64,000 bases of DNA, taken from contig CM055902.1 of assembly GCA_029582155.1 (NCBI GenBank), forward strand, positions 13,794,041 to 13,858,040, written 5' to 3'. Shown in pieces: positions 2,295-62,254 of the stretch. This DNA is from Panopea generosa (Eukaryota > Mollusca > Bivalvia > Adapedonta > Hiatellidae). The notes below the pieces were generated by a model. It searched no databases and was not told the origin of the DNA. It saw only the letters and a list, made by a program, of their open reading frames with translations. The position numbers were made by a program, and so were the translations under genes. Position 1 is the stretch's first letter. The number at the start of each line of letters is the position of its first letter.

Positions 2295-2481
2295 ATGGTG
2301 ACTAATTTACAGCTGCCGAATGCAGATGGTAAACCCTTTAGAATTACTCGGGGACAAAATTCGTATCGTTGTCGTCATTGGTCCCCGCCAGAGCATTGCC
2401 TTACTAACTGTATATAAGACGAAACTTTACAAAATTGATCAAAGGTTTAGCGATACACGGATATATAAAAACGTAGTTATG
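2295..2481 (+). promoter_or_regulatory. core promoter and 5'UTR exon of gene A
   Basis: A TATA box (TATATAAG) lies at 2411-2418, 61 bp before the ATG at 2479-2481, which is the last codon of exon 1 and is followed at once by a GTAAGT donor. The 120 bp upstream of the TATA box is paralogous to the matching stretch of gene B (41505-41697), including a block around GTCGTCATTGG. A normal TATA-to-start distance puts the cap site near 2440-2450, so the 5'UTR would be about 30-40 nt. Conservation with B supports function; the cap site is inferred. Confidence 0.72.
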
Positions 2482-8400: not shown

Positions 8401-11400
8401 ATCGGTCCACGTTGCATGGATAGCAATAATATGTGCATGTAACGACATCACTGTACGTCTATGTCAATCAGTGATGCAAGAGTCCAAATAATTATTGAAA
8501 TAATAAAAAGTATAAGAAGAAAAATCCATTTGAATTCATATCATACTAGGTATTTTTGAAAGTGGCAATTCTGGAGTGGATTGTCATAGATTTTACCTCT
8601 TGTGTCACAGATCAAAATTCTGAGTTTAACAGTGTAAAGACAATATCTTATATTGGATTTGTACACATTTGTAGATGATTTGTGTTTATTTTCTTGAAAA
8701 TTTAATAAACTTTACATTCTTCAAAACTTTTATGTAAACAATGCACATGTAACGAACACGTATGCATAAAATACATATTGAAAACGTGTTAATAAATTAA
8801 ACTTTGTTACAGCATTTGATTGCACCGGTGTCACCGATGCCTGTAAGAACGGCGGTACGTGCCCGGCCGCGAAAACAACGTGTTCTTGTGTAGCGGGATA
8901 TACGGGAGATGATTGCGGAACAGGTAAGTGGCAAAATCAAACTATCATTAGAGTAATGACATGTTTCCTTGACTTTAATTGTAGTATTGTCAACTTAAAA
9001 TGTCTTTATAAGAAATATTTATCTCGATTGTTATGAAGTTCGTTCCACACGTTCGGTGTATTTTTCTGATATGGATAAAACCAATGCTTAGCCTTATTGT
9101 TTTTCATGTCTGATTGTGGCGTGGGATACTACGCGCATACAAATCATTCTACTCTTGATATAGAATATGTCGTGTTCTCAAATATGTATTTTATATGGGT
9201 TCATACGCTTTGTTGGGAATTGAACGTATTATAATATGGAGCAGCTGTTATTGTAGCTGCTCCATCTAAATAAATATCAGATGTAACGGAGCATTCAGTC
9301 AAGCTAAGACCCGTCCAATTGTAGCCAAATTCGCTTGGTCAGCAGATAAAGAAAACGTAAAAAGGTCGGCTAGAAACCTAAAGGGAACCACATATGGCAT
9401 CAGCGAGCAGTACCCAAAAGAGATTATGGACGTTCGCCGGAAACTCATGCCGATCATGAAACAGGCCAGACAGGAAGGAAAAGACGCGTATATCAGGATC
9501 GACAAACTATATATAGACAAGCAGTTGTACAGGGGAGATAACTAGGACAAATGTGAGAGTGAACTAAAGTGTTTAGCGTGGAATATTGAAGGGTTGACTA
9601 TTGATAAAAGATCAAGCAAGGATTTTGTAAATTTAATTAATGGTTATGATGTTATATGTTTTAGCGAAACATGGACCAACAAAACTTCAGATATCGACTT
9701 CAAAGGGTATAGTAATCCTATTCATTCGTTTAGACGATTTCAGCACCGGAGGGCAAAACGCTCTAGCGGTGGTATCATTATTTATATAAAGGACTCGATG
9801 AGAAAAGGTATTAGCCTTATAAAGAATGATTATGATTGTTTAGTTTGGTTGCACTTTGATAGATTATTTTTTAATATTGATGAAGATATTTATTTGGCAG
9901 TAACATATATAGCGCCAGAAAATTCTCCTGCTCATAACATGTATGATATAGATATTTTTAGAACAATTGAACAAGATGTAAATTATTTCCAAGATAAGGG
10001 GAAAATATTTATTGTAGGAGATATGAATAGTAGAGTAGCTTTAAAAACCGACTACATAGATAATGACAGAAACATTGAGCAATTTGATTTTCTCGAGGTA
10101 GACAATCCAATACCTCGTGCGACCTCAGACTTGGTATCAAACCGTTACGGTGAATATTTAATTGATCTATGCAAATCAACGAATTTACGTATTGTTAATG
10201 GCAGGTTACATCGGGATAAAGGTTTAGGTAAAATTTCTTGCGTAACACATAATGGACAGAGCCTAGTTGACTACCTGTTAACGGCCCACAATAACTTTGA
10301 CACACTTTCAGATTTTTGTGTTCACAATTTTAACGAATTCTCCAATCATGCCCCAATCACATTTTCATTCGATATAACGCCTCAATATGAATCACGTGAT
10401 ACAAGAGAACACATTTATTACAAGTGGAAACCCGAATTTAAAAACGATTTTATTAATGGCATTTCTCAAGGTATAAATGATTTAGAACAATCGCTATTAG
10501 ATGGGATAGATAAGAACTGTAGTACTGATGAACTAGTATCGAGTCTCACTGACTTCATAGACAAAAATGCAAATAAATATTTCAGGCATACTGTTAAACC
10601 TTCGGGTAATTATTTTTTGTCAAATCAAAACAAAAATAAGTGGTTTAATGATGAATGTAAAACTCGCCAATCACTATACAAGGAATATATTTTATTGTAT
10701 AATATGAATAAATCGGATGCGAACAGGCAATTGATGCTACAATCGAAAAAGAATTATAAATATTATTGCAGAAAATGTAAATATGCGTACAATCGGAACT
10801 TAGGATATAAGATGAACGAAATGAGACGTAAGCGGTCAAAAGAATTCTGGAACATGTTTAAAACACGTAAAAAACAGAGTATCAGTGATATACCATTGGG
10901 TAAATTCTATGACCACTTTAAAAACTTATCATCGGATGTCACTATAAATCCTGATAACGAATGCGAGGATTTCTTAGATAACTTCGATGGCTTTATAAAT
11001 CCAAGTACTTTTTCTGAATTAGACAACCCGATTAATCGTGAAGAAATAATTTCTGCGGCTAAGAGACTTGGCACGAATAAATCAAGCTCACTGGATAATA
11101 TGCTCTATGAGTACTTTAAAGAGACAATCGACCTAACAGCGAAGTCGCTGGAGATTTTATTTAATTATATTTTAAATACAAATAACTTTGTAAATTGTTA
11201 AATCTACTCAGGTCTATGTATAATGACATCAAATTATGTGTTAAACATTTGAATAATTTGTCAGACTTTTTTAAATGCGAAGTAGGGCTATTGCAAGGGG
11301 AGATAACCTCGCCGATATTTTTCTCGTTATTTTTAAATGACATTGAACTGTCTCTTCAATGTAACACCGATATAGGAATAACACTTGATCAGCTATCTAT

Positions 11401-14400
11401 TTATCTTTTGATGTTTGCTGATGATGCAGTGTTATGTTCAGAAACACAAAAGGGATTACAAGCGTCACTTAATAATCTAGAAATATATTGCCACAAATGG
11501 AATTTAACAGTTAATACAGAAAAAACTAAGATCGTTGTATTTCGAAAGGGCGGGATATTAAGTAAAAATGATAAATGGACATACTCCGGGTCAGAAATTG
11601 AAATAGTCAATAGTTTCAATTATCTAGGTATAGTATTGTCAAGTGGAGGGTCATTTATTAAAAACGCGAGCACTCTATCTGGTAAAGCCTTGCGGGCAAT
11701 GAGTACCTTGCTTAGCGTAACAAAAACATATGAAATACCTATCAATATAATGTTTAACCTACTTGACTCATACGTTCTATCTGTCTTGAATTATGGTTGC
11801 GAAATATGGGGTTTTGATAAATCAGAGCAGCTGGAAAGGGTGCATAGAAAATTCTGTAAATGGACACTAAATGTAAAAATGTCTACAAATAGTTTATCTT
11901 TATACTCAGAAACGGGTATATTCCCACTGTATATTGAAAGGTATATACGAATAATAAAATACTGGCTCAATTTACATAAAGAAAAAAGCCGAAATTGTGT
12001 TTTAAACACAATAAAAAATGTACAGAGACAAGAAATTGAAACAAACCACAATGCAAAAAACTGGTCTTCGAAAGTGCGAAATTTATTGTGCCAAAGCGGC
12101 TTTGCAGAAATATGGATGTATCCGGACTCAGTTATTGTAAACTTGTTCATACCTTTGTTAAGGAATAGATTAAGAGATATTCATATAAATCATTGGCAAG
12201 AAACTATTTTAATCCACACTTCGTTGTCTTTGTACAGAAATATCAAACATACTTACCAAATATCAGACTACTTGATAAAACTGAACAACGAAAAACATAG
12301 ACACATTATTGCCAAAATAAGATTGTCATCTCATTGTTTGTACATAGAAACCGGACGTCACAGGAACATAGTTAGAAATGAAAGGAAATGTGTGCTTTGT
12401 AACAAAAACGATATAGAAGATGAATATCACTTTATTTTAATCTGTCCTTATTATAATGATATGCGAAAGCAATATATTCCAAACTATTATATCAATAAAC
12501 CTAGTATGTACAAATTCATTAATCTTCTGCAGTCAAACAAAAAGTCTGTCTTAAACAAACTTGCATCATATTGTATCAACGCATTTAAAATGCGAGAACA
12601 GGTGCTTAATGCAAACACCTAATAAGCTAATATTTTTGATTATATTATAAAGTCATATGTTAATAACAAGTCAACCAGCCATGTTATTCACTCTCACTAT
12701 ATTTACTATTACCACCATAATTATTATTATTACTACCATATTTTCTAAAATGTTTGTATTTAATATTGATATGCATTTTTGCATGTGCCTTATGTATTTG
12801 ATTATGTATTTATATATGTTATTTATGGTGAAAAGCTTTTGTAATGCTTAAGCCAAAATAAAAGAATGTTCTGTTCTGTTCTGTTCTGTAACTTTAACAC
12901 GCAACACGTATTTTAATAACATACCTACTCTTGCATTAAAGATTGATTTTCATAACGGCTGCTAAGTAAACACATTCATTGTGTCACAAATATCAGAGTA
13001 ACTATTGATGGAATAAAGAAATGATTTATGTATCAACTTGTTTCGTTAGTTACTGGATGTCCAGCGTTGTCGATTACATACAATGCTACATATGAAGCGA
13101 ACACTATATCCTTACACTTGTTAAAATATCATCACTTAGCAATGTAGTTCAAACAGTCAGAATAATCTCTTTTTTGACGTGCGCTTCGTACTTTTTCCTC
13201 ATGACCTACGCATTTTGCTTATATTTGACCAGTACACATCACAGGAGCAAAAACAATTATATATTATATAAAGATAAAGTTTAGAACAGAGAAACAATAT
13301 TTTAGGATTACTTAAAAGCGGATAAACACATATTTTCCTCCTAGGTGGTTAAACTAGGCACTGACATTATTTAATAACTTTTATTAGCTGACGTCGTTGT
13401 ATGAACGCCCGTGACAGTGAAAGGATGTATCTAAATGTTTCGTGTTCAGGAAATGATGTTTGTTAAATTAAGTTACCCTATATGAAATATTAATATGAAT
13501 TAAATATACTTTAGTTAAGTTGCTTTCATTTTTCCGTCACTATTTAGTATTTTGCTCCGTATTCTGCGTATAGTGTATTTCAGGTACATGCATTATGATT
13601 AATGTATATATTGATTAGGTTTGTGCTATTGTGATGTGGTGTTTTATGAATAATACATCTTCTGTTGGACATATAATATAATGTATGATTTGGTCATATG
13701 TTTAATTTTTTAACCGGTGCCTATATTTATTTTAGACACGGATGAATGTCAGTCAAATCCTTGTTTGAATGGCGCTACCTGTGGAGATCGTGTAAATTCG
13801 TACACTTGCACCTGTGTTGCAGGGTGGTCAGGGACGACTTGTGACAGTAATACTGTTTTATTATGTCATTGAGCTATAAAATGCATTTACGGGGAATGTC
13901 AATTATTTAATTTTGTTCCGAATTTGTGACCCAACGCATTTGCTAATATATGATTCTGATGAAATATGTTATAATTATATGAAATTGGTTATACATGTAA
14001 TAACAGTCTCACTTTCTTGCATGTATTCAAAACATTTTCATAATTAAGTAGGTCACATAATTTTTGAGATGTAACGATACAAGATCTTGTACAATTAAAT
14101 GATCCTGGTTTTTGTTGACAAAACGTTTCTCCACAAGACCAATTTATTCGACAGGATAGAAATAACTTGAAATATACAGATTTCAAAAATTAGCTACAGG
14201 AGATCGTAAACAAATGTAACTACACAAACCTTGCTAGTTTGTTACGATCCAAAATCAGGTCATAATTCGGTACCTTCATTATGAGCGATATTTATATCCA
14301 CATCCTTTTGGATAAACAGAGATTTTTATTTCACCTAGACCAAACTGTTTTTATCTAGCTCGCGTCATCGATTTATGTCCTAATGGGAAGCAGAATAGCA

Positions 14401-17400
14401 GTTCTGGTTTTGTATGGTAATATTTCTGTACTTTGATCACATACGAACTAACTTGATTTGGTGTATTTTATACATTTATTACTTGCTTACATAATTATGT
14501 TCTAGTTTAAAGACAATACACTCCAAAATATGATAGTAATTATATGTATTAATTATGTTAGATCATTCATTTAAAATAAAATGGTAATATAAAACTCCAA
14601 ATGCCACTGATATTTAATTTCGACCATTTTAATTATCGTAAAATCAATTAAAACTTAATGAAAAGGCCACTTAACAATGTTAATACAATACTGAAGTATA
14701 TTGGAACTTTACACATTTTCAGTTGTGTTTATTTAACTGATACTTTTATAAGCTTCACAGTTTTACAATTTGTCAAAACTGACATTTAAAAGACGTAATA
14801 TACATTGATTTTATTTACGTATATATTCAAATACTTATAGTTATATTCTAGTTATAAGACTATATACTTAAAAGATGCGTGAAATAATAAAAAAGTATAA
14901 GAAGAAAAATCCATTTGAATTCATATCATACTAGGTATATTTGAAAGTGGCAATTCTGGGTGGATTATCGTAGATTTTACCTCTTGTGTCACAGATCAAA
15001 ATTCTTGTATAAATTTGTGTTAATTCTTTAATTAAAAAAATGTTTATTTAAAACTCATTACGCCACCCTCGGGTTTAATTCTGATCCATGTGAATAAATG
15101 TAACATGAACTATTATTTAAAACATGAAAAGTATAACAGTGTAAAGACAATATCTACTATTAGATTTGTACACATTTGTAGATGAATTGTGTTTATTTTC
15201 TTGAAAATTTAATAAACTTTACATTCTTCAAAACTTTTATGTAAACAATGCACATGTCACGAACGCGTTCGCATAACATACAAATTGAAAACGTGTTAAT
15301 AAATTAAACTTTGTTACAGCATTTGATTGCACCGGTGCAACCGATGCCTGTAAGAACGGCGGTACGTGCCCGGCTACGAAAACAGCGTGTTCTTGTGTAG
15401 CGGGATATACGGGAGATGATTGCGGAACAGGTAAGTGGCAAAATCAAACTATCATTAGATTAATGACATGTTTCCTTGGCTTTAATTGTAGTATTGTCAA
15501 CTTAAAATGTATTTGTCTGATATGGTTAAAACCAATGCTTAGCGTTATTGTTTTTCATGTCTGATTGTGGCGGAGGATACTACGCGCATACAACGCATTC
15601 TACTCTTGACATAGAATATATCGTTTACTCAAATATGTATTTTCTGTGGGTTCATACCCTTTGAATGGAATGGAACATATTATAATATGAAGCAGCTGTT
15701 ATTGTAGCTGCTACGTGTAAATAAATATAAAGGTGTAACAGCTTTTGTCAATGCACACCTAACTTAAATACTGTAGGTCTAGTTATATGTGTATATGGTC
15801 ACTAGTTGCCATCAGAGTGAAATTGACTGTACGCCTAGTTGCTTATATTATGATCATACAACTATGATTATGATCGCACAACTATGAACATAGTTACAAA
15901 AATATTTTCGGAAGCAAATCAATTAAATAATAAATACATTGTTGCATTAAACATAAAGCACTTAAGACAAGAGGTTACACGTTAGACCGACACTTTTTGC
16001 ATACCAAATGTGACTTTCATCAATGCTCTAAGCACTCAGCGTCCGTCGAATGACCCAATGAATAAGTCGGTCTCATGATTTTGTCAACCTTTACCATGTT
16101 AAGCCATTGAAATATAATCCAATATTTTGGCCTTTTTTGAACGCGCCTCAATATAACCAATATGATAATGGGCCGTAAAATAATATCGTTTTTACCTCAA
16201 ATCAGAAATTATATATTTTTTACTGAAGAGTTAAAATATAGAAAACGGACATTTATATCAGACACAATGGCAATCGAAACATTTCAGAGTATTTCTTAAA
16301 GCGCATATACACACATATAAATATAAACATATACATATTACAAGCAACGAATTCAAAAGGGTCAGGCCACAAATGCTCACCACAATACTTCCTAATTTTC
16401 GGTACCATACACGGATGCTTTCTGAAAGCAATATCGTCTCAGGAAGACTTTTTCATTTTAATAATCAATGGAATTTGAAAGAAATGTAACGATACCATAG
16501 ACAGATCCAATATTTTTGATCAGGTCGGATAGCTTACGCCAATTTCACGGGGAGGGCTGATTAAAAAAATAATATTCTAAAACATCTGCCGACACGCACA
16601 CACACAGCACTCACATACATACACCTCTTTGGATCTGACATTGGTTATATATTGAAAATGACTCTAAAATCATTTTCGAACTCGATTATATTGACTCGTC
16701 CAATATCATGATTATACGGTTCTGTTGAACTTATAAAGTCACTTTTTACTAAACAGGATCTTATATGCAAATCATGTATGATATATATTATAATACAATT
16801 ATACCTTTTATTAAATCCTTACATGCCATACCACGTAGAAATAGGGTTCCTATATGGGTCACACCACGTAGATTGCTTGATATTAGGGGGACAACAGCGT
16901 TCATCCTCTTGCTGCCTATTTAGGGCCCATATAGAAATCAACATAGGTTTCCTATATGGGTCACACCACGTAGATTCCTTGAAACCAGGAATACATTAGC
17001 GGTCAACCTCTCGCTGCCTTTTTGGGGCCCATATAAAAATCGTCATAGGGTTCCTATATGGGTCACTCCGCGTAGATTGCTCGAGACTAGGGGTAAAATT
17101 TGAAAAATAATCCATCAGCGGTCATCCTCTCACTGCCTATTTTGGGTTCATATAGAAATCAACATAGGGTCCCTTTATGGCCCCCGTATGCTTTGCTTGC
17201 TGGGAAGCTATTTCATATTTACATGTTCAAAGACCCTGTAATTCCGACAGCTTCCTTCCTAAGGCACTTCATTAAATTGCTTGGTATAAAAGTCTGTACT
17301 GAAATAGTATGTTTATTGTCTATATAGCCAGCTAATCACACAAGTATGTACGTTCAATTAATCGTTATCTTCCATTAGAAACCCGTGTTGTTCCGGCTGA

Positions 17401-19640
17401 GCATTATTTCATTGTCGATCACTGAAACAGGGGTGTCTTTTTTCATTTTACTTTTGTGTTATGTTTAATAATTTTATATTAAAATCATTTCAAATAGTCA
17501 GCCTAAATTTCGTATGCCATACAATAGGTTATGATATATACTTTGGTCCTGTAAACAACGTATAACAGGTACAGAATTTCATTAAATCAGTGGTATAACT
17601 GATCTTTTTAACTGTCAACTAGCCGTGCAGTCGATAAAGTGGAATAAACAACTAGGTGTACAGTATTGAAGTGAAGAGTAAATTGACAAAAACTATCCGT
17701 TTTTAATAAAAACATAAAAATAGGCAGAATTCAATACAAGTCCTTGATAGGAAAATGATTTTTCTGCACCAACATCTAAGTAACAACTGCATATATTCGT
17801 GGAAAAGCCAATTTAGCCTCATTTGATTGCAACAAAATCCTCGAAACACGTGTAAAAATCAGAGATCACCATAGCGTATTTTGATCGATATTGTGACACA
17901 TTTAAATGTTTCGGTTTTGACACAAATCAGCGTAAGAAAACAATACTGCGATAAAAGATTACTTACTACAAATCCTAAATATCGTCTTTCTTCTTGAAAT
18001 CTATAATGAAATTGAGCAATAAACAAAATACATATTTGTTATTTTCAAACAGCAACTGACAATTCATCGCCGTACAGATCAGCAACTTCCATACACTTAT
18101 TATTCAGTGGCCCCAACAGGCACATAATCACAATTTAGTTGCCCCAACAGGCATAAACTTATTATTCAATTGCTCGCACAGGTATACACTTATTATTCAG
18201 TTGCCAAAACAGGCATACACTTATTATTCAGTCGCCCCTACAGGCATACAACAATCATTACTTAGTTGCCCAAACAGGCATAAAAAATATTATTCAGTTG
18301 CCTTTACAGGTATACAGTTATTATTCAATGGCCCAAACAGGCCAACAATTATTCACATGTCCCAACAGGCCTACACTATTATTCAATGTTCAATTCAGTT
18401 CAAAACGATTAATCAGAGGAACAGTAACCTTTGCAGTTTATTGACCAGCCCTGTGCCAATTATCAGTGGCTAGGCATTGGTGACTTTCATATTCAATTGT
18501 ATAGTATTGTTTAGTTCGCGTTTAACCATAAACAAGATTGTTTACATTCACTGAATCCTGCACAGTGCACCGAGGCCCTGCAAATATATAACTATACATT
18601 TCCACTAATTATCATTTTAACCATACGTATGAAAGCCGTGATTAATTTGTCGTGTAGCAGAGTTCGTTGGCATCACTCCGCTTGGTATTGTTAGTCTGTA
18701 CTCCAGGTCTCCATCTTCCGCCTGGATAACCATCGTAATAGAGTTTCTCCGCTAAACCATACGACAGTTGTGTTTGTTTTCCGTCTAAAGAATGCCGAAT
18801 AACTATGAAATATAATTAAGCTGCATATTCTTTTTCGTACATTTTAGGTTGGGATGGTGGGTTTTATAAGTATAGCATTTCAATGAACTGTTTAAATTAA
18901 ACTTTTAAGTTACTCAATCTTTTTTCACCGTCTTCCGTTTGGACCTGGCAAGAGAAAGTAAACCGACTTGCCCTCTATTAACAAAGGACACCACTCTGCA
19001 TTGTTTTACTGACTGAGGCGCGACTGGTTGTATTCAATTACACTGAAGTAGTTAAACGCTGAGATAAATTGATTTATTAATTTAGCTTGTCATCAATCTC
19101 ATTATTTTCTAAGATTTTTTTATTTGAATTTTGTAAAAATACTACTTGTCTCATAGGATTCTTAAGAACATTTTGTCTGTATCGATATCAATACCAACAC
19201 AACCTAAACTTATACTTTGTTTTGTGGTTTTATCAGCAGCAATGGAAGCACTCTATTCCATACAAATACGTGTATCTTCAAACATACATTACTTTCATTT
19301 GTCGCCTTATATCCTAAAAAAAAGAAGTCATCGACATTTGAAACTATCCGTTTTGTAAATAAAGCAGTCAATTAGGATATATATATAATTATCTATGTTA
19401 TAATTGTTATTGACTTGACACCCCAATAACCCAAAATTGCTTGAATATATTGCTGTTAACTTAAATGCAGATTTATGTCCATTTTTGCCATTCACGTTCA
19501 AGCGCGTAGATATTTAATTACGTGTAAAACTTCATCAAACATTCAATAATACATACATATAGATAAAAGTAAATGTACATAGTAAATGTACTTATACACT
19601 CATTAATACTATTTCTCTCTGGATAATACACATATGTTAT

Positions 19641-19681
<41 letters not shown>

Positions 19682-22600
19682 TTGTGGTTTAGCTAGGCGC
19701 ACTCGCCGTAGTCTGGTCTGTACATTTATGTCTGGTTGTTCGCAAATAATTATCTTCATATATACATATCTGAAAAGATCCCAAATATTGGAAATCCCGT
19801 TGTATATATATATATGTAAATAAATATTTGTGAATAACCAAGACATAAATGTACAGACAAGACTACGGCGAATGCGCCTAGCTACAATGCAAACCATAGA
19901 TATAATATCAAGACCTCTGCCAAACCAATAAATTTGGTGTCGACCATGACTTATATACTATTGAATTACATGCAACACATCTGGACAGGGTGGACAATTT
20001 ACATACATGAACAGATTTATTAACCCGTTGGATCATATAGATACAGTGAATATATATATATATATATATGGAGATAATTATTTGTGAATAACCAAGACAT
20101 AAATTTGCAGACCAGACTATGGCGAGCGCTCCTAGCTACAATGCAAATCATAGACACAATATCAAGGCCTCTCCAAAACGAAAACATTTGGTGTCGAGCA
20201 TGACTATGTTTATATACCTATATATCTATTATAATGTCAGTTTAGTAACAATGGTTGATGAAGTGGAGTTTAGAAATAAATATTATATGATATGTTCAGA
20301 TCAGCCTAATATACCCAAATATATATGTACACATCAAGAAATGTGTACATTTACACGTATTGCTCATACGACTTTACACCAAACTATCCTTATTGTGGTC
20401 AATTACTGAATCATATGCTTTAATAGAAAATAGATTGGAAATTTGTATTTACACCAAAAATACAGAACGAGTGTAATAATGGTCTAAACTATAAATATAT
20501 CCCGGTGCCGTATAGTATTTTGACCACCGTTGTAATATGGCTTTACAGCTATTTTATATAGAGAGAGTGAAATGACCCCTCCCCCCTATTGTAAAATGAC
20601 CACCCCCCTTATCTTATAATCCAAATAACTTTTTAGTCAACTTTATCTTACGTTAAGGGCACAATTATAATTTCGGATACAAATCAGATTAATTATCAAA
20701 GAAAAAATATAGGAAGGTGGGGGTCACTTTACTATATATTATAATGACTTTCGTGTAGAATCACAACAACTAGAACAATTAATGATCACATAACACAATT
20801 GTAATATGATAGTCACTTAACATGAAAAGATGATGGGGGTGAATATACAATGGCCATAGTATGTGTGTTTTTTTTTTCAATTTAACTGTAATGATGAATT
20901 TCTTGTAGATTGATGAATTCTAAAACAAAATAAAATCACATAGTAAATTTATAATGTGATAATCCCTAAACATGAAAATATAATATTGGGTTGGAATGGG
21001 GGGAGTCAATATACAATAGCCACGGTAAAGTGAAACCCCTCCCTGAAAATGTTTTTTTTTTAAATTAACTGTAATGGTGAATGTCTTGTAGATTAACGAA
21101 TGGTAAAGTTGCCCCAATACCCACACAAAAAATTGATATATTTTAGATTTATCTGTTATAATGAATGTCTTGCAGAAACACACATACTAGAAACATGTTC
21201 GGATCACACAATACAATTATAATGTGAAATTCACTAAACATGAAGAGATGAAGTGTGTGTGGGTGAGAGGGGTGGGGGTGAAAGGGGTTCAGTATGCAAT
21301 GGCCATTGAAGAGTGTGTTTTTTTTATTTAACTGTAATGATGAATATCTGTTGAATCACAAATACTAGACCATATTATGATTGTGTAGCACAGTTATTAT
21401 GTGACAAGTACTAAACATAAAGTGATGAGTGGGTGTCAATATACTATAGACATGATAAAGTGACCCCCTCCCCCAAATTAATGTATGTTTTTTTTAATTT
21501 AACTGACTGTAAGGATTATTCTTTTTTAGAATCACAAAAATAAATGTAACTAGAACAATAAAAAAATAATATTTCAAAATATGTCGGTTCACGGTGTCAT
21601 AACACATGTTTCTCCGTATTTAAGATATTGATGAATGTGCCACGAATCCTTGTAACAATGGTGGTTCTTGTGCTAATGGAGTGAATGAATACACTTGTAC
21701 CTGTGCTGCAGGGTGGACAGGGACGACTTGTGAAACAGGTAATACTGTTTTGCTCTGGGTGATGAACTGCGTTCTATTTAATGCTATATAATGCATGATG
21801 TCTCAAATTCAATGGCAATGCAAATACTGTGATTTGTTAAAAGTAGTGTATTTTTGTTTAACTCTCATATAAGCATTACAAGTATAAATATTTGCGTATA
21901 ATATATATAGCGTTTACATATCAAAACATATATGATCATTTACAAGTTTCGGTATCTATATTAATGCACAAAATATATAATTGATAACGGACAATCGTGA
22001 AATATACATGTATTGCCTTTTTGATAAAACACACAGGTTAAAAACACAAAACGATAAAATCAATTTTTTAAAAAAAATCAGCAAGTTTTCTATATAATGG
22101 TATAGCATTCGATAAGAAAAAAATGAAAAAAAGAAGGAGTGCTATTGTTTTATCTGAATTATGCAATATAAGTTCTGACAAATACTCTAACACAGACATC
22201 GGACTCAAATCGACCCGCAGAATCGCAGTCATTCATTTATATATATTAATACACAATTTTGATTCTAGGTATGTGGGTTTCATAATATTGGTAAATAAAA
22301 TGGGTATACCTTCTAACTTTATACATACAGCTTTGTAATGATATGTATTTGTGTATCAGTTATATTTCAGTAGTAGATTTCATCTTGTTTTATGTATGCC
22401 CGTTAATCCATATTCCTGTGAAAGAGTCTAGTATATTTTAGGTTGCATAAGTTTGGTTTAAAGCTAAAATCTGTTATCTACTTGACACCCCAATAACCCA
22501 AAATCGCTTGAATATATTGCTGTTTTCCTAAAGGCAGATTTAATGTCCATTTTTGCCATTCACGTTCAATAGCGTCAATATTTAATTATGTGTAAAACTT

Positions 22601-22764: not shown

Positions 22765-22820
<56 letters not shown>

Positions 22821-25800
22821 TTGTGGTTTAGCTAGGCGCACTCGCCGTAGTCTGGTCTGTACATTTATGCCTGGTTTTCGCAAATAATTATCTTCATATA
22901 CACATATCTGAAAAGATCCCAAATATCGGAAATTCCGTTGTTGATTTCATTCATCTCCCCGTGTGTATATATATATATATATATATATATGGCGATAAAT
23001 ATTTTTGAATAACCAAGACATAAATGTCTGCCAAACAATATATTTGGTGTCGACCATGACTTATTTACATGCAGCACATCTGGACTGGACGGACAATTTA
23101 CATATATGAACTGATAGCTTTATAAGAGTAGGATCCAATTACGGATTCATGACTACTCATATGCTATATAAATGACAGATTTGTTAACCTGTTTGGATCA
23201 TAGAGATACAGTGAATTCATATATATTTTATTTTATAAAGGGAGGTAATTTAATTGACAACAACGTAATTTACGATATTTGGGATCTTTTCAGATGCTCA
23301 TTCACAATGTATGATATATATATTATATATATATATATAAACATATAAATATATATATGGAGATAATTTTTTTGTGAATAACCAAGACATAAATGTGGAG
23401 ACCAGTCTATGGCGAGCGCGTCTAGCTAAAATGCAAATCATAGACACAATATCAAGGCCTCTGCCAAACGAATACATTTGGTTTCGAGCATGACTGATAT
23501 ACTATGTTTAAAGTGATCCCCTCCCTGAAATTAATGTTTTTTTTTTTAAATTTAACTGACTGTAATGATAATTCTCTTTTAGAATCACAAACGTTAGTAC
23601 AAATTATGGTCACATAACACAATTATAATGTGGTGTCTCTAAATATGATTAAATGAGAGGGGGTCAATATATAAAGGCCATAGTAAAGTGATCCCCACGT
23701 CTCACCACACTAATCATTCTTTAATGATATAACGATGTTGATGAATATGTTATAATTTCTCTTTCCCAATAAAGGGATATAGAGATACCCAAACAGTCAT
23801 AATTGATATAGAGCATATCTAGAAAATACAATGGTTAAGGTTTTACACATGTGTGTGTAATTGTTATTTTTTTGTGATATTTTAAAAAAAATCATCAAGA
23901 GATGTATCCATAAACAATTATTTGACCTTAAACTGAGATGAAAGTAACTATAATGGTGATAAATCGAAGGGTTCCTTTTAATTTTAGGGGGTGGGGGGGG
24001 GGGGGGGGGGGGTTGGGGTGCATTTTACTGCTATTTTTGGGCCGATTTGTTTGACCTCTATATTGAGTGCCTAGCTGGACCCTTCACAAAGTTTTAGGAG
24101 TAAATGTATCAGTCAATTTACTAACAGGAATTCACATAGAAAAATAAAGTTTTTCGTTACATTTGGATTAAACATTGAACTGAAACCAGTGGATTTTAGG
24201 ATAACTTTGAGGCGGATAATCACATATTGTCTGTCCTCCGAGATGGTCATGCTAGGTAAACAAATGCTTTTCAGTTTTTAAAAGGTGACGTTAAATTATT
24301 GAAACATATGTTTTAATAGCAAATATTTTTGAAATACATTTGAACAAAAATTATGTTTAACATAGGACGAGTGTCAAAATGTTCAACAATATTAATAAAC
24401 CCTGGCTTTAATAAAGATTTTACCATAATCAAATGAAACTTCGCTGTCCAATTATTAGTAACTTTTTTTAGTTTTGCATTACTTTTTGTTCAATTATGGG
24501 TTTAGTACTATTTGTGCTACGAGATACAATACAGTTCATTTATTAGCGTTTGAATTGTTCTTTACGCTAAAATATATGTAGATTCCTAACTGTTAAGGTG
24601 TTTCTAGTCAGGCAACAGAAGGCGTTCTAAAGTGTATGCTCTTTAACTATCATCAAATGACCTCGCTAGCTTTAAGTACCATTCAAACAGTTTTGTTTGA
24701 AGGCTTTCTTCGATCTTAAATATAATCTGGAACTATTACACTGACAATGTTTGTCCATTTTGATTAAATATAATCATTTGCGAGGATTGTCATATAAGCA
24801 ATATACTTACATGATAACTGTTCATGAACTTTACAACAGGTCGTTCAAACTACCGTCAACTAATTAAGGAATTCATTGACTTTATCATTTAAGTCTTTAG
24901 GAAGGATTATTAACCAGTTTTTCCTCAGGACAAGGTCGTTCTACAATGAAAAAGAAAAAGGAACACATAAAACTCTAAAGTGCAGCAAGCTGTAGCAAAT
25001 CATGGTTTAAAGTAATGAAATACGAACTTTATTAGTATTTTGGAAAATATCTATTTATAAAAATATTTATTAAATTCGACCACAGGAAAGCATCCTCTAG
25101 TAAGTTGCATATGCATTTATTATGAACATTTCTCATCTAAATGCCAAGGTAGTACAAAAATCAACCGTACACAAACCATCACACACTCTGTCACAGTGGT
25201 AATGTCGTCTTCCAACAAATTCTCAAAACAGTGTTGATAAAACTATACCTATAAATAGTTAAACATAAATGTCAATAGAACAATATAAAATGAATATTTC
25301 AAAATATGTTTTTTCCCGGTGTCATAACACATGTTTTTCGTATTTTAGATATAATTATAATTATCATAATTGTTAAAACATTGATGATAAAACAATACTT
25401 ATAAATAGTTAAATGTAAATAGAGTGTATAAAATGAATATTTCTAGATATGTCATTTTGACGGTGCCATAACGCACGTTTTCCGTATTTTAGATATTGAT
25501 GAATGTGCCTCGAATCCTTGTAAGAATGGTGGAACCTGTGGTAATCAAGTAAATGCATACACGTGTAGCTGTGCTGCAGGTTGGACAGGGAAGACTTGTG
25601 AAACAGGTAATACTGATTTGCTCTGGGATTTGAAATACAATTATATTACTGTTATAATACATGATATCTCAAATTATGTATACATTTTATCAAAATAAAC
25701 ATAACAAAAAAGATTGTAATGAATTAAAGAGGAACTTATCATGTCAATGACTACTAAATATTCATGATGATTTATTGACTTCTTGGTTATCTATTTGTGC

Positions 25801-28649
25801 TGACAAAACCATTTCCATTTATTAACAAACAGGAACAATAAAATTTAATGTACTTAGGTGTGCTATGTTTTCTCTTATTTGTGTAATATTAGCACAGTCA
25901 AATACACACACACCTGACTAAATTATCCCATTTATTTCACAGAATTATCTTTTTTTTTATTTAGTTGCATATATATATAACCATTTTCGGTTCGGTAAGT
26001 TTGGTTTCGTAATCTTGGTGATTGAACGAACATACCTTCAAACAGTATACACAATGCTTTGTGATTATAATTTATGTTTTTTTATTAATCAATAATATTT
26101 CAAAAGTAGATTGTTATAGGTATGTCCGTATGTTCCTTTGAAAGAGTCTTTGTTTTAGGTTGCTTACATCTACTGTCAAGTGCGTTTAAAGATTAAATAT
26201 GTGTTCTACTGAAAGCTAACTAAGACTTAAAAAACCTGGCTAGTCTTTCATAGAAATATTACCATTCTAATGTGTAAAACATATAAATGCATACAACGAC
26301 AATTTGTGTGGAACGCGTGGTCTAGTGGTATAGCACCGAACCCATGATCGGAGGGTCGTGGGTTCGTCCTCTGCCACGGCTCTGTGTGATATCCTTAAGC
26401 AAGACACTTTTTCCTCATATGCTTTGTACTGGTTCTACCCAGAAAGACTTCTAGCATGATTAGTCTAAGTTGAAAGAACTTGTTTTACAATCAAAGTAAA
26501 ATAAATAAGTTTAACCAACGTTAATTTGTTGTTACATATTTTTATTTATATGAGAAGCCGTTTATGAAGTACAGTAAGAAAAATATGGTTTTCGTGAAAC
26601 TAAACACTTTGTCATGGAATTCTAACTGGAATCGCTGGAGTCACAATCCATAAACGTATCCACTGCGCCCTGTAGGCATATAATAACATTAGTCGTATAA
26701 ATCTAAGTTTAAATTTGAACTGCTTACTCTGGTTTAATCGATAATGCCCGGACATTTCCGAACGTTTACAGATATAACTGAGATTATATATTTTAAATCA
26801 TTACTTTATTCCGTGGATTAAGTTTTATTCAAATATTGGCGATAATAGCGAGTATGAATACATGTTTTGACAATAAACAACAATATTTTGCAACAGATAT
26901 GATCCAGATAGTCACAACATATGCAAATATTACAATTATACCAGTTTTATTTAATTAAATGGTAAAAACTTCTGGTTATGCCGCTTTAAATATATACATA
27001 CATTATTCTTTCTAATAAATAAATACTTTCTCTGTTTGCCTTAAGGGTTTTAGACCAATTTCTCTATCTATATGTGATTTTTTTTGCGATATCGTTCCAA
27101 ACAGGTTGAAATAACACAAGACCACAACTATATATTGTTATATATACGCAAAATTAAAAGGTCTAATATATAACAAGGACAATAAAGGCAAGCGATAGTT
27201 TAATGTTTATGAATTGGAAAAATACATCATACAATGAAATGAAATGAAAGCTATGGATCGATATTTACATGTACTAATCAGTATAAAAATTGTTTGGTTT
27301 TATTTTAAGCTACGGTTGGTGCCTGCACTGGTGAAACTCCTGCATGTCCTGACACTGTAGATAATGGCGAATGTTCCGGTACTGCCTGTGTATGCAAGGA
27401 TGGTTATAAAAAAGAGGACGATAACTGCGTTTTCGGTAAATTAATTGTTTACGGTTTACGTTACTTGCATTCAATAAACACTATGTTTTAATCAATAACG
27501 TGACTGTAAAAGGGAGCATGATTTTTCAAAATAAAAAATAAAAATAAAATGGCTTAAAATGTTTTTCCCAATATGTCATGTCTATATATACTCACTGACA
27601 ACGTATCGCCAAAAGGGTGTGTGTTTAAGCATGCCAAACTCATATACTGAAAAAGGTGGTCAGTCAGACTAAAGTATATGTTTCGCTAAAAATTACATCA
27701 TATTTTGTGACGTTTTAAATGAGTCACTTGATTTCATTTTTATTTCAATTTGATCTGCCATACAGACTGACATGTTGTAAAACGGGTTTATCTTAGAAAA
27801 GTCAAGATGACAATGTAAAGGTCGTCAAGCAGTGGGGATTTCGTTTCAAGTTTACCACGCAACTCCGTTTGATATATCGATTTTGTCCTGTTTTGTTAGA
27901 TTTGATATACCAAACCATTAGGACTTTATTCATTCATAATAAAAAGATGCTTTTTCATCCATTTGAAAAATATTATTTAAGCACTACATAGTATTGTATG
28001 TATTTTATTGTTAATTTGGTCTTATATTACTTAATATATCAACTAATATTATGAAATCATATTTTAAAATATCTAAATATATAACGCACTATTGGTTTAT
28101 GGTGGAGAGCATGGCCCCGTGGTACAGAATCGGATCCAAGATTTGGGTGTGTTTTCAATTCTCTGTCACTGTTATGAGTGGTATCCTTGGGCGAGACACT
28201 TTATCTGCATATTCTTAGTACTGGTTTTACCAAGGAATTGTTGAAAAGTTGTAAAACCTTATTACACAATCGATATATTAAAACATTAGTTTATGCATAT
28301 GTTTTTTTTAAATACGTCTATACTATTAATATGTATGAGTTGTATATCCTAATTACTAGTATTAATTTAGGTAATATCAAACCGTATGTCTCTTTTAAGT
28401 CATTTATATAGTTTGCCCGTAACACTAGTGTTTGATTTAAGTTTTTTTCTGAATACATTTTCTAGATATTAGTGAATTGGTGTATTTAAACCGACTTAAC
28501 ATAACATTTCTTCTATCAGATATAGATCTTAATATATTGAATATCTATATTTTTCTTCAGTTCCCGATAATGCTGCTGGCAAGACAACGATGGCTGCAGT
28601 TACACTGATGATGGCTGTCCTGACAATCATTTTAATGCACATATTTTGA
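2479..28649 (+). CDS. gene A: multi-EGF secreted or GPI-anchored protein (spliced, 281 aa)
   Basis: Nine coding exons: 2479-2481, 2905-2971, 8813-8923, 13736-13846, 15320-15430, 21625-21738, 25493-25606, 27310-27435 and 28561-28649. Together they are 846 nt with no internal stop. Order: signal peptide (about residues 1-22), EGF, calcium-binding EGF, EGF, two calcium-binding EGFs, an EB-like six-cysteine module, and a hydrophobic tail ending at TGA. Intron 1 is phase 0 and all others are phase 1, the hallmark of exon-shuffled extracellular modules. A signal peptide, only disulfide modules and a hydrophobic C-terminus without cytoplasmic residues suggest a GPI-anchored surface protein; a secreted form is possible. 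Gene B downstream has the same plan. No orthologue can be named from sequence alone. Exons I failed to see in the 5.8-kb second intron would change the length. Confidence 0.82.
2905..2971 (+). CDS. gene A exon 2, signal peptide
   Basis: Flanked by AATTCCAG and GTATGC. Read from the ATG that ends exon 1, it gives [16 protein letters not shown] then VLITQSS: a short charged start, a hydrophobic core and small residues suited to signal peptidase. It ends one base into a codon, matching the phase-1 module exons. The exon in gene B (42086-42152) has the same length and nearly the same sequence. The two conserved splice sites and the preserved reading are strong evidence that it is coding. Confidence 0.87.
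2972..4210. other. gene A intron 2, first part: no feature seen
   Basis: AT-rich intronic sequence after the donor at 2972. I found no cysteine-module exon, RNA gene or clear transposon end here. Gene B has an EB-like exon in the corresponding position (44576-44701); I did not find its counterpart in A. Confidence 0.5.
4222..4450. repeat. GC-richer repeat built on a 'taagcggccacctgt' word
   Basis: Variants of AAGCGGTCACCT and AAGCGGCCACTT recur six or more times in about 230 bp, in a block more GC-rich than its surroundings. A related fragment lies at 5187-5265. It looks like a dispersed non-coding repeat; I cannot name its class. Confidence 0.55.
5187..5268. repeat. fragment of the same 'taagcagccacc' repeat
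   Basis: Contains TAAGCAGCCACCTGTGTTAA followed by an inverted form (GGGTGGCTGCTTAA), so it can fold back. The word is shared with the longer repeat at 4222-4450, which supports one dispersed family. Confidence 0.5.
5505..5517. repeat. poly-C tract (13 C)
   Basis: An uninterrupted run of 13 cytosines in otherwise AT-rich intron. Confidence 0.95.
5600..5690 (-). mobile_element. tRNA-derived SINE head (minus strand)
   Basis: The reverse complement reads like a tRNA: GTTGCATTAGCTCAGTCGG (acceptor and A box), a CTGA/TCAG anticodon stem, B box GTTCGAATC, and TGCAAC closing the acceptor, followed by AGTCTCCGTGATG. The same tail word follows the element at 59745-59825, so this is a SINE family and not an isolated tRNA. 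The anticodon loop does not fold cleanly into seven bases, which argues against a working tRNA. Confidence 0.62.
5855..5927 (-). pseudogene. tRNA-like sequence, probably pseudogene or SINE head
   Basis: On the minus strand there is an A-box-like D arm (CATAATGGATACAG) and a good B box (GGGTTCGAATCCC). The anticodon and acceptor stems pair poorly, so a functional tRNA is unlikely. It lies 165 bp from the tRNA-derived element at 5600-5690. Confidence 0.5.
6443..6549. mobile_element. 107-bp fold-back element with 34-bp inverted repeats
   Basis: The left arm 6443-6476 and right arm 6516-6549 are inverted copies differing at one position, with outer ends ATTTTAGGCCATTTT. A 39-bp spacer separates them and pairing continues weakly inward. 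It resembles a very short MITE. I see no convincing target duplication. Confidence 0.75.
7312..8296. mobile_element. non-autonomous Tc1/mariner-like element with long inverted repeats
   Basis: The left end CGAGGTGTATTAAAAAAATA and right end (CTAGGTGTGTTAAAAAATA in reverse complement) are flanked by TA on both sides, the target expected for Tc1/mariner elements. The right arm spans about 8088-8296. The left arm matches it over 7312-7485 and resumes at 7857-7893, because another sequence is inserted in it. The arms contain the palindromic word TGACGTCA twice. No transposase is encoded, so it would need one in trans. It lies in gene A intron 2. Confidence 0.8.
7477..7856. mobile_element. 362-bp insertion with 9-bp target duplication, nested in the mariner-like element
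   Basis: GCATGGTAT occurs at 7477-7485 and 7848-7856, and the 362 bp between them interrupt the left inverted repeat of the host element. The insert is more GC-rich than its surroundings. Its ends (CACTCGGAAC and, reversed, CAATCGTACG) match only loosely. A 9-bp duplication suggests a Mutator-like element; the class is inferred. Confidence 0.62.
8495..9287 (+). repeat. segmental duplicate carrying an EGF exon (copy 1)
   Basis: About 790 bp around exon 8813-8923 is near-identical to 14884-15738 around exon 15320-15430. A diverged third copy in gene B spans 45170-45745. The match ends at 9287, where the LINE begins. Copy 2 has an extra block at about 15005-15125 that copy 1 lacks. Confidence 0.85.
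8813..8923 (+). CDS. gene A exon 3, EGF-like domain
   Basis: The 111-bp phase 1-1 exon between TTGTTACAG and GTAAGT encodes one EGF-like domain with cysteine spacing C-x6-C-x5-C-x6-C-x1-C-x8-C, including the KNGGTC and AGYTG signatures. It lacks the acidic D-x-D-E start of calcium-binding EGFs. Exon 15320-15430 is almost identical, and 45536-45646 is the counterpart in gene B. Confidence 0.9.
9288..9545 (+). pseudogene. LINE ORF1 C-terminal fragment
   Basis: Eighty-five codons end at TAG (9543-9545). RPIVAKF, then [17 protein letters not shown], then [12 protein letters not shown] and KLYIDKQLY match the C-terminal region of L1-type ORF1 RNA-binding proteins, which bind the element's RNA. 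The N-terminal part is missing because the copy is 5'-truncated. The frame is the same as that of ORF2 after the stop. Confidence 0.78.
9546..11201 (+). pseudogene. LINE ORF2 first part: APE endonuclease and start of RT, broken
   Basis: Continuing in frame after the ORF1 stop, this reads through the endonuclease signatures WNIEG, FSETW (catalytic Glu), [14 protein letters not shown] and SNHAPI (catalytic His). A linker and the N-terminal RT region ([20 protein letters not shown]) follow, then a stop at 11199-11201. There is no in-frame ATG near the start. The endonuclease would nick target DNA. The frame breaks in the RT fingers because of a deletion, so no full polyprotein can be made. Confidence 0.88.
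11189..12622 (+). pseudogene. LINE ORF2 second part: RT palm and C-terminal zinc region
   Basis: It resumes in another frame after the deletion junction. It keeps the [11 protein letters not shown] block, the catalytic FADDAVL motif, [10 protein letters not shown] and [12 protein letters not shown], then ends with a C-terminal region containing [14 protein letters not shown] and CPYY. RT blocks upstream of LLQGE, including the first catalytic Asp, are missing, so it cannot polymerise. The ORF would copy element RNA in an intact relative. Confidence 0.88.
12623..12892 (+). other. LINE 3'UTR and TGTTC-repeat tail
   Basis: About 245 bp of AT-rich non-coding sequence, an AATAAA at about 12857-12862, and TGTTC repeats at 12868-12889. 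Short simple-repeat tails rather than poly-A are known from several LINE clades. Confidence 0.75.
12893..13735. other. gene A intron 3, end; shared with gene B
   Basis: No gene. About 13310-13700 is recognisably related to 58300-58570 in gene B, upstream of the paralogous cbEGF exon, and more weakly to the intron stretch at 24200-24300. This suggests the exon was duplicated with its upstream intron. Confidence 0.6.
13736..13846 (+). CDS. gene A exon 4, calcium-binding EGF domain
   Basis: Acceptor TATTTTAG and donor GTAATA, phase 1-1, 111 bp. The junction codon plus exon reads DTDEC, then [14 protein letters not shown] and AGWSG. The acidic start and the aromatic residue after the fourth-cysteine loop fit the calcium-binding EGF class. 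Spacing is C-x4-C-x5-C-x8-C-x1-C-x8-C. The closest relative is gene B exon 60246-60359, which shares the CLNGATC and VNSYTCTC words. The donor is read as A|gtaata, one base shorter than in the other cbEGF exons. Confidence 0.9.
13847..14880. other. gene A intron 4, no feature seen
   Basis: AT-rich intron; I see no exon or RNA gene. From about 14880 it merges into the second copy of the EGF-exon segmental duplicate. Confidence 0.5.
14884..15738 (+). repeat. segmental duplicate carrying an EGF exon (copy 2)
   Basis: Near-identical to 8495-9287 apart from a block at about 15005-15125 missing from copy 1. That block has a match in gene B near 45296-45360, so it is ancestral and was lost from copy 1. 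Confidence 0.82.
15320..15430 (+). CDS. gene A exon 5, EGF-like domain (recent duplicate)
   Basis: The 111-bp phase 1-1 exon has the same borders as exon 8813-8923 and differs by a few bases; changes include VTDAC to ATDAC and PAAKTTC to PATKTAC. All six cysteines are kept. The near-identical introns show a recent exon duplication with flanks rather than gene conversion of the exon alone, although conversion of the whole segment is possible. Confidence 0.9.
15740..16836. other. gene A intron 5, no feature seen
   Basis: AT-rich intron with no exon-like cysteine module and no clear transposon end. Confidence 0.5.
16838..17190. repeat. tandem repeat, about 105-120 bp unit, 3-4 copies
   Basis: Each unit carries GGTTCCTATATGGGTCAC, GTAGATTGCT, a CATCCTCTCGCTGCC-like stretch and GGCCCATATAGAAATC. 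Units are diverged. The short ORFs at 16778-16999 and 17100-17327 are by-products of this repetition. Confidence 0.8.
17200..18090. other. gene A intron 5, no feature seen
   Basis: Intronic DNA between the 110-bp repeats and the minisatellite; nothing recognisable. Confidence 0.45.
18096..18388. repeat. 31-bp minisatellite, about 9-10 units (array 1)
   Basis: Units of the form GTTGCCCCAACAGGCATACA plus CTTATTATTCA repeat with period near 31 bp. Units are degenerate and vary in length. A longer array of the same unit is at 50779-51400. Both arrays are followed by the same 1.25-kb sequence, so the array is part of a dispersed element. Confidence 0.9.
18390..19642. repeat. dispersed repeat following the minisatellite (copy 1)
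   Basis: Paralogous to 51395-52671 over about 1.25 kb. Partial copies lie at 45770-46430 and 22470-22737. All but the 45.8-kb copy end at a (CT)n tract. No protein is encoded. A central minisatellite in a non-coding repeat resembles the pearl-type or Helitron-like elements described from bivalves, but I cannot see diagnostic Helitron ends. Confidence 0.7.
19643..19678. repeat. (CT)18 microsatellite
   Basis: Pure CT run joining the dispersed repeat to the fold-back element at 19679. Confidence 0.97.
19679..19895. mobile_element. 217-bp fold-back MITE
   Basis: Ends are GGTTTGTGGTTTAGCTAGGC and the inverted ...CTAGCTACAATGCAAACC. Inverted arms of about 75 bp include CGCCGTAGTCT and CTGTACATTTATG. 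Related arms occur at 20070-20148, 22818-22900, 23360-23438 and 52779-52862, so it is a family. Confidence 0.78.
20070..20148. mobile_element. solo right arm of the fold-back MITE
   Basis: Matches the right arm at 19816-19895 (GAATAACCAAGACATAAAT, then CCAGACTATGGCGAGCG). No left arm lies nearby. It is preceded by an (AT)n run at about 20049-20069. Confidence 0.65.
20550..21560. repeat. satellite-like array, unit about 190-220 bp
   Basis: About five diverged units each contain a C-rich stretch (AAGTGACCCCCTCCC), a poly-T, TTTAACTGTAATGATGAAT, CTTGTAGAATCACAAA, ATCACATAACACAATTATAA and AATATACAATGGCCATAGTA. Extra single units occur at 23510-23705 and 52990-53160. The array ends about 40 bp before the homology block that precedes cbEGF exon 21625-21738. 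Confidence 0.75.
21625..21738 (+). CDS. gene A exon 6, calcium-binding EGF domain
   Basis: The 114-bp phase 1-1 exon after TATTTAAG ends at a GTAATA donor. It reads [16 protein letters not shown], then NEYTCTC and AGWTG, with spacing C-x4-C-x5-C-x8-C-x1-C-x8-C. The D-x-D-E start and the Asn and Tyr in the middle fit a calcium-binding EGF. Closest relatives are 25493-25606 and gene B exon 53829-53942. Confidence 0.92.
21739..22460. other. gene A intron 6, first part: conserved among cbEGF introns
   Basis: No gene. Blocks such as CATGATGTCTCAAATT near the donor and a stretch at 22355-22450 recur after other cbEGF exons (25607 on, 53943 on) and in gene B at 56120-56660. Confidence 0.6.
22738..22817. 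repeat. (CT)n microsatellite
   Basis: 80-bp CT tract with few interruptions, followed at once by a fold-back MITE arm, as at 19643-19679. Confidence 0.95.
22818..23438. mobile_element. fold-back MITE, longer or composite copy
   Basis: The left arm starts GGTTTGTGGTTTAGCTAGG at 22818 and the right arm ends near 23438. Part of a second right arm (23001-23030) and AT tracts (22967-22990, 23313-23337) lie between, so the copy is rearranged or two copies have merged. Confidence 0.6.
23510..23705. repeat. single unit of the 190-bp satellite-like repeat
   Basis: Shares the C-rich start, poly-T, TTTAACTGACTGTAATGAT, AATCACAAA and ATCACATAACACAATTATAA-like order with the array at 20550-21560. Confidence 0.7.
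23993..24012. repeat. 20-base poly-G tract
   Basis: Uninterrupted run of 20 G with more G-runs on both sides (GGGGG at 23987-23991, GGGG after the TT), a candidate G-quadruplex on the + strand. Assembly length may be unreliable here. Confidence 0.95.
24030..25492 (+). repeat. intron block upstream of a cbEGF exon, duplicated in gene B
   Basis: About 1.4 kb matches 54800-56110 in gene B closely over long stretches, and 24660-24850 also matches 53160-53350. It always lies upstream of a cbEGF exon or of the place where one has been lost, so the cassette of intron plus exon was the unit of duplication. Confidence 0.8.
25275..25340 (+). pseudogene. orphan cbEGF splice acceptor without its exon
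   Basis: The sequence up to TCGTATTTTAG|ATAT matches the acceptor region of exon 21625-21738 (GGTGTCATAACACATGTTT), but after four exon bases it changes to AATTATAATT. A second acceptor region leads into the true exon at 25493. This is a remnant of a duplicated cassette whose exon was deleted. Confidence 0.6.
25493..25606 (+). CDS. gene A exon 7, calcium-binding EGF domain
   Basis: The 114-bp phase 1-1 exon lies between CGTATTTTAG and GTAATA. It reads [16 protein letters not shown], then NAYTCSC and AGWTGKTC; all six cysteines and the calcium-binding signature are present. It is probably a duplicate of exon 21625-21738, since the introns on both sides share blocks. Confidence 0.92.
26309..26515 (+). 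mobile_element. tRNA-derived SINE in gene A intron 7
   Basis: A box GCGTGGTCTAGTGG and B box GGGTTCGTCC lie in a tRNA-like head. A body follows with AAGACACTTT, TACTGGTTCTACCCAG and ending AAATAAATAAGTTTAA. Two relatives of this body are at 28102-28290 and 61531-61742. Confidence 0.8.
26520..27309. other. gene A intron 7, remainder: no feature seen
   Basis: AT-rich intron with no recognised element. Confidence 0.45.
27310..27435 (+). CDS. gene A exon 8, EB-like six-cysteine module
   Basis: The 126-bp phase 1-1 exon between ATTTTAAG and GTAAAT encodes a module starting ATVGACTG, with [15 protein letters not shown] and DDNC. Spacing C-x6-C-x8-C-x4-C-x1-C-x10-C is EGF-related but longer at the end, like EB modules. 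Gene B exon 61174-61299 is the direct counterpart, with the same length and phase and most residues shared. Confidence 0.88.
27436..28100. other. gene A last intron, first part: no feature seen
   Basis: Intron between the EB-like exon and the SINE; nothing recognised. Confidence 0.45.
28102..28290 (+). mobile_element. tRNA-derived SINE in gene A last intron
   Basis: A degraded tRNA-like head (GCATGGCCCCGTGGTACAG) is followed by the body words GAGACACTTTATCTGCATA and TACTGGTTTTACC. The copy in the last intron of gene B (61531-61742) occupies the same place, so it was inserted before the genes duplicated. Confidence 0.75.
28561..28649 (+). CDS. gene A exon 9, hydrophobic C-terminus (probable GPI signal)
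   Basis: The exon begins after TTTCTTCAG with two bases completing a Val codon and ends at TGA (28647-28649). It encodes PDNAAGKTT followed by about 19 hydrophobic residues ([19 protein letters not shown]) and no further tail. Small residues N-A-A-G before a short spacer and a terminal hydrophobic run fit a GPI-anchor signal; a tail-less membrane anchor is the alternative. The gene B exon 62166-62254 has the same length. Confidence 0.85.
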
Positions 28650-38855: not shown

Positions 38856-38869
38856 TCAACCATAGGCAT

Positions 38870-41490: not shown

Positions 41491-41504
41491 AGATGTTTGT
41501 TTAA

Positions 41505-41694
41505 TGTGACTGATTTACAACTGTTAAAATAGGATGGCAAACACTTTAAGATATTTGGGACAAATAATCATTTCGCTGTCGTCACTGGCCCTCGTCTGAG
41601 CGGTCCTCTGTCTGTATATAAGGTGTGAATTTAAAGAATTGGTCAAAAGCTTAACGAAACACAGACGACTAGAACGTGGTTAGGATGGTAAGTC

Positions 41695-41697: not shown

Positions 41698-62254
<20,557 letters not shown>

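Follow-up and report, generated by a model that had tools for sequence, protein, structure and literature searches.

A one-contig cluster of modular EGF-type genes with differing module strings in Panopea generosa

Anatomy of the two genes in the window

The window, ie the whole 64,000-nucleotide stretch of Panopea generosa DNA analysed here, is C9:13794041-13858040, and the genome against which its parts were searched comprises 1.47 Gb in 39 contigs. Two genes, copy 1 and copy 2, were found on the plus strand. In each, a TATA box is followed by an exon whose last codon is ATG, then by a signal exon, by six exons of phase 1-1 with one domain apiece and by a hydrophobic last exon. The module types bear names coined in this analysis: 'd', cb (cbEGF), EB1, EB2 and EB3. 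Positions without a contig name are those of the window.

In copy 1 the TATA box (TATATAAG) lies at 2411-2418. The start codon at 2479-2481 is, by both the splice model and leader reading, the last codon of exon 1 (ATG/GTAAGT, the stroke marking the splice junction). The signal exon of the splice model (2905-2971, phase 0 in and 1 out) is followed by a short EGF of 'd' type at 8813-8923, a Notch-like cbEGF with a weak donor at 13736-13846, a second 'd' at 15320-15430, cbEGF exons at 21625-21738 and 25493-25606, and a six-cysteine EB3-type module at 27310-27435, the final one ahead of the tail. The coding part of the tail exon up to the stop, a putative GPI-signal-like sequence, was placed at 28561-28649 by the splice model and a tail rule. 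The spliced model, signal-d-cb-d-cb-cb-EB3-tail, is open and encodes 281 aa.

Copy 2 has its TATA box (again TATATAAG, from leader reading) at 41615-41622, its start codon, also at the end of exon 1, at 41685-41687, and its signal exon at 42086-42152, the last two from the splice model. A six-cysteine EB1-type module at 44576-44701, a 'd' type EGF at 45536-45646 and a six-cysteine EB2-type module at 48827-48949 precede cbEGF exons at 53829-53942 and 60246-60359 and an EB3-type module at 61174-61299. The coding part of the tail exon up to the stop (62166-62254) was given by the splice model, the tail rule and the genome search with this tail. The spliced model is signal-EB1-d-EB2-cb-cb-EB3-tail, open, of 290 aa. 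Both leaders have TATATAAG, ATG/GTAAGT and the signal exon in common, and the promoter/leader regions of the two copies align over 772 columns with 68.5% identity.

The domain exons of the splice models were compared with the output of an exon finder that accepts an exon only if it has splice sites, is of phase 1-1 and shows the cysteine pattern of an EGF, with six cysteines or more. The same 12 exons were returned on the gene strand of the window and none on the opposite strand; in 200 kb of the cluster the counts were 33 and 0. A simple EGF pattern run through all six frames of the window gave 12 matches, all on the plus strand. For copy 1 domain 2 the finder favoured an in-phase donor at 13864, and 13846, which gives the family length, was adopted. 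From the signal exon to the tail none of the 14 junctions breaks the frame, each domain exon being phase 1 on entry and exit. In a phase-agnostic check the best-scoring acceptor left phase 1 for all 12 EGF exons and the best donor for 11; the two donors of the twelfth, 13846 and 13864, are both phase 1 by hand. The preliminary description of modular EGF genes with a common leader and one-domain phase-1 cassettes is thus borne out by the open models, and so is its statement that the domain string varies between copies. Its emphasis on genes built only from phase-1 cassettes is true of the models, but the property is nothing unusual for EGF proteins: that EGF modules are carried by symmetric phase-1 exons is textbook knowledge.

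The two 'd' exons of copy 1, at 8813-8923 and 15320-15430, are duplicates, 95% identical over 300 bases with the flanks included, and cluster together in the tree (96/95). The intron after domain 1 contains, at 9270-12622, the remains of a non-LTR retrotransposon with an endonuclease and a truncated reverse transcriptase in two overlapping frames, adjoining the end of the duplicated 'd' segment. A dispersed repeat of 1.6 kb that includes a 31-base minisatellite occurs at 18090-19678 and at 51100-52706 (approximately 81% identical). The introns reach about 6.3 kb and are filled with repeats, so that they may harbour further exons, and skipping may also occur. An Rfam scan of the window gave no matches.

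The cluster on contig C9

The signal exon matched 15 places in the genome, all of them on C9 between 12.79 and 15.77 Mb and 13 outside the window; nine are on the plus strand, up to 14.25 Mb, and six on the minus strand, from 14.55 Mb. The copy 2 tail exon matched at least 17 places, all on C9 between 12.89 and 14.98 Mb and at least 16 of them outside the window, both counts being lower bounds because copy 1's own tail was absent from the matches listed. Eleven tails are plus, up to 14.384 Mb, and six minus, from 14.457 Mb. All six promoter matches fell on C9 at 12.79-15.78 Mb. Among domain exons, the best 32 of 150 scored 'd' matches (E<0.001), the best 45 of 150 scored cbEGF matches and nine strong EB3 places all lay in the same stretch of C9. 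A second, weaker group of EB3-like exons was seen at C9:46.44-46.61 Mb. Exons resembling cbEGF were also noted at C5:7.495-7.515 Mb and C5:9.81-9.92 Mb, regularly and often about 1.7 kb apart (62-64% identical to the query), and at C19:38.43-38.49 Mb (62-72%).

Judged from these matches, the window genes belong to a one-contig cluster that spans about 3 Mb and has at least 15 predicted members. Leaders and tails together show that left-hand members read rightward and right-hand members leftward, with a single strand switch near 14.4 Mb, which may record an old inversion or an inverted duplication. The exception among domain exons is a minus-strand 'd' at 14.366 Mb, to the left of plus matches at 14.372-14.384 Mb.

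Ten leader loci were read. All ten have TATATAAG and an in-frame signal exon; nine have the ATG/GT donor, and in these the TATA box begins 68-75 bases ahead of it. The tenth, at C9:12787329 (the 12.787 Mb member), is otherwise intact, with ATG/GA in place of the donor. For the 14.855 Mb member no tail was found before the next leader. Because of the lost donor in the one and the missing tail in the other, some members may be pseudogenes.

At C9:14887222-14922324, 1 Mb from the window, 15 cbEGF exons are spaced by 2,243-2,246 bases, with one gap of 5,815. Thirteen units of this 2,244-base array are mutually 99.4-100% identical; in the stretch that was compared the remaining two resemble them less. 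At C9:14199028-14230213 the 'd' pairs 14199028/14214562 and 14210359/14225893 are both spaced 15,534 bases apart, which suggests a recent segmental duplication inside one gene.

Kinship, module strings and selection

In a tree of the ten leader regions copy 1 grouped with the 12.787 and 14.553 Mb members (100/100), which lie 1.0 Mb upstream and 0.76 Mb downstream of it, and copy 2 fell on the opposite side with six others. The copy 1 promoter is 94% identical to those of its two relatives and 73% identical to that of copy 2. The window genes are therefore neighbours and not sisters at their 5' ends, and a pair of sister duplicates was rejected for the leader regions. The 'tandem pair' of the preliminary description is accordingly given up, at least 15 members being spread over about 3 Mb.

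Five members could be read from signal to tail, copies 1 and 2 among them. Each gives an open, in-frame splice product, and no two have the same string, subject to the possibility that the finder missed an exon. The 12.878 Mb member reads EB1-d-EB2-d-d-cb-EB3 (327 aa), the 14.665 Mb member EB1-d-EB2 and the 14.837 Mb member EB1-d, so that the module counts of the five are 2, 3, 6, 6 and 7.

The two ends of some members appear to have different histories. The leader of copy 2 is 76% identical to that of the 12.878 Mb member and its tail 96%. The two gene bodies are largely colinear, introns included, and identity tends upward, unevenly, toward the 3' end: by segment it is 70% in the leader, 93% in EB1, 72-78% in 'd' and EB2, 82-83% in the last cbEGF and EB3, and 74% then 90% in the tail. 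The 3' data reject a clade of the 12.878, 14.665 and 14.837 Mb members (AU p 0.00017) and the 5' data reject one of copy 2 with the 12.878 and 14.665 Mb members (AU p 0.0015), p-values which are optimistic because the clades were chosen after seeing the identity table. From these conflicting trees it follows that ends have probably been exchanged between members.

Paralogous exons were more alike than either of their flanking introns in every 'd' pair (21 of 21) and every cbEGF pair (28 of 28); the random level of identity is 0.54. In the EB classes several pairs, the distant ones, were no different from the intron level. Values of dN/dS, all of which rest on small numbers of changes, were calculated for 'd', cbEGF, EB2 and EB3 with only one copy of the 2,244-base array retained. 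The medians were 0.42 for 'd' (11 exons, 2 of 55 pairs above 1), 0.37 for cbEGF (10 exons, 4 of 42), 0.61 for EB2 (7 exons, 5 of 21) and 0.40 for EB3 (3 exons, 0 of 3). In the separate set of pairs used for the exon/intron comparison, 3 of 28 cbEGF and 7 of 26 computable EB pairs exceeded 1. For EB1 the sample was the window exon 44576-44701 and the EB1 exons of five other members, in all of which it is the first module after the signal; the median was 0.82, the value was above 1 in 6 of the 14 pairs for which it could be computed, and the pooled pN/pS was 0.92. By these estimates most modules appear to behave as coding sequence under purifying selection. The outermost EB1 appears relaxed or diversifying, and selection is not uniform across modules.

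The predicted product and its interpretation

A domain search of both conceptual proteins placed Pfam EGF above its gathering score of 21.5 in each (E 6.5e-32, 109.8 bits for copy 1; E 5.9e-18, 65.2 bits for copy 2), and the Pfam models above cut-off were exclusively EGF types. The best PDB sequence matches were the EGF strings of Notch1 and Delta-like 1, reached via the cbEGF exons. The earlier designation as EGF repeats is loose for four of the 12 domain exons (27310, 44576, 48827 and 61174), six-cysteine modules that are EGF in a wide sense only. The Pfam EB model scored 17.2 bits on the first module of copy 2 (44576), below its cut-off of 24.3. For the EB3 module at 27310 the best of five structure models had a pLDDT of 86 (the others 63-81) and four short strands, and a fold search of the PDB with it gave no match with E below 1.

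The mature parts are predicted to be about 23-25 kDa and acidic (pI 4.05), with 15% cysteine and 2.6% (copy 1) or 1.7% (copy 2) tyrosine. Patterns of the O-fucose type occur in five exons of copy 1 and three of copy 2, and of the O-GlcNAc type in five and none, respectively, according to the usual consensus sequences. By sequence reading the features of a GPI-anchored protein are present, with a signal exon at all ten leaders and a small-residue region plus hydrophobic end in all eight tails read. Those tails have DN[SA]A[GD] followed by a hydrophobic, protein-closing end, a constancy partly built in, since likeness to the window tails was what led to them. The hydrophobic ends differ, and that of copy 2 is interrupted by P and N. 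A constant motif with differing hydrophobic ends is what a GPI signal would allow, in keeping with the GPI-like tail first proposed. Reduced to an acceptor, small residues and a hydrophobic end, the tail rule gave six matches on the wrong strand in 200 kb, two on the wrong strand of the window and two unrelated ones on the gene strand, so that it is the PDN-type motif alone which singles out the family. The product is likely to be a secreted, GPI-anchored adhesion or recognition protein, as judged from the gene anatomy.

We consider it probable that the window holds two members of a one-contig multigene family whose small secreted products are put together from EGF domains and EGF-like six-cysteine modules that can stand in for one another. 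The leader, which comprises the TATA promoter, the exon that ends in ATG and the signal exon and from which the genes would be transcribed, and the last exon, with a probable GPI signal, would be constant; between them the phase-1 exons, one domain each, form a string that varies. Since every internal exon is symmetric 1-1, duplication, loss or replacement of any of them leaves the reading frame intact, and cluster members therefore differ in the number and order of modules. Swaps of ends between members would go back to gene conversion or unequal crossing-over. The product would most likely be rod-shaped, acidic and O-glycosylated and would stand on the outside of the cell membrane. It may serve in adhesion or in recognition of a binding partner, with specificity given by the module string.

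Several known systems offer other explanations. Shell-matrix EGF proteins carry a ZP domain, and the Pfam ZP model found none in either window protein at E up to 0.1, on which ground membership of the EGF-ZP egg-coat or shell-matrix proteins was rejected. It is improbable that the genes encode structural or adhesive secreted proteins of a matrix, either byssal (the foot proteins fp-2 and fp-5) or of the shell with EGF domains, tandemly expanded for bulk production. Molluscan precedents do exist: green mussel fp-2 has 23 EGF-like repeats and fp-5-like proteins 1-7, with tandem copies of both (PMC7971044), and EGF-domain shell-matrix genes form tandem pairs in the pearl oyster and are reported to be tandem in Lottia too (PMC4759782). 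The Perna and Mytilus proteins are EGF-rich and secreted, with variable repeat numbers and tandem genes, and PVFP-5 is among the PDB sequence matches (E 7.7e-13 for copy 1, 1.8e-9 for copy 2). However, Notch and Delta strings score far better. The mussel proteins belong to the byssus, and fp-2 has tyrosine-containing ends; here the mature parts are acidic and low in tyrosine, and at least 15 leaders stand in one cluster. The conserved hydrophobic end, too, points to a membrane anchor more than to a matrix protein. With neither a terminal peptide outside the modules nor a tyrosine-rich composition, fp-2/fp-5 membership was rejected. Gamete-recognition proteins of egg coat or sperm surface, diversifying between individuals by analogy with ascidian HrVC70, would be an unlikely explanation. 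HrVC70 has 12 EGF-like repeats, polymorphic between Cys3 and Cys4 and in the linkers, and its relative HaVC80 has one repeat more (PMC9265791). Repeat number varies among the present genes as well, and EB1 evolves with dN/dS near 1 in five members. Against this, purifying selection prevails in the 'd' and cbEGF exons. The HrVC70 and HaVC80 precursor has a C-terminal ZP domain, in contrast to the GPI-like tail and multigene cluster seen here.

Soluble or GPI-held modulators of Notch signalling, ie decoy ligands like the EGF-only ligands of DLK type, are very improbable. Notch1 and Delta-like 1 are the best matches of the cbEGF exons, in which O-fucose-type patterns also occur, but the models have no intracellular part, and no DSL, LNR or ankyrin domain was found at E up to 0.1. 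Delta/Jagged EGF models did appear, below cut-off. Membership of the Notch or Delta families was rejected for want of the LNR/ankyrin and DSL domains, and a variable multigene cluster is untypical of a conserved pathway. It is scarcely probable that the cluster consists mostly of decaying tandem duplicates with few working genes. The lost donor at 12.787 Mb, the tail not visible at 14.855 Mb and the broken LINE and many repeats in the introns are signs of decay, but all five fully read members splice open in frame and median dN/dS is below 1 in every module class.

Lamprey variable lymphocyte receptors are likewise GPI-anchored, modular and cassette-assembled; their modules are LRRs and their assembly is somatic, to which nothing here points. 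No named family was recognised in the preliminary description, and this holds for Pfam, the PDB sequences and the literature searched. Within titles and abstract openings of the open-licence literature, no description of a GPI-anchored EGF cassette cluster in a mollusc was found. The family is ordinary in its parts and unusual in its cluster.

Taking the multigene family of interchangeable modules a step further, the cluster could be a germline-shuffled repertoire of GPI-anchored EGF strings in which individuals differ, for allorecognition, recognition of symbionts or pathogens, or gamete choice; we offer this tentatively, as a possibility. Variety would then come from exchange of ends across the 3 Mb two-armed cluster, from the growth of exon arrays, of which the one with 15 units of 2,244 bases is an example, and from the fast-changing outermost EB1. 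Symmetric phase-1 exon shuffling is usually inferred from old events, and here it is open to study within one chromosome region that combines fixed ends, differing strings, conflicting end histories and a young exon array. Should the strings of individuals prove to differ, an animal that lacks adaptive immunity would have in this cluster a candidate system of variable recognition, and one that can be tested.
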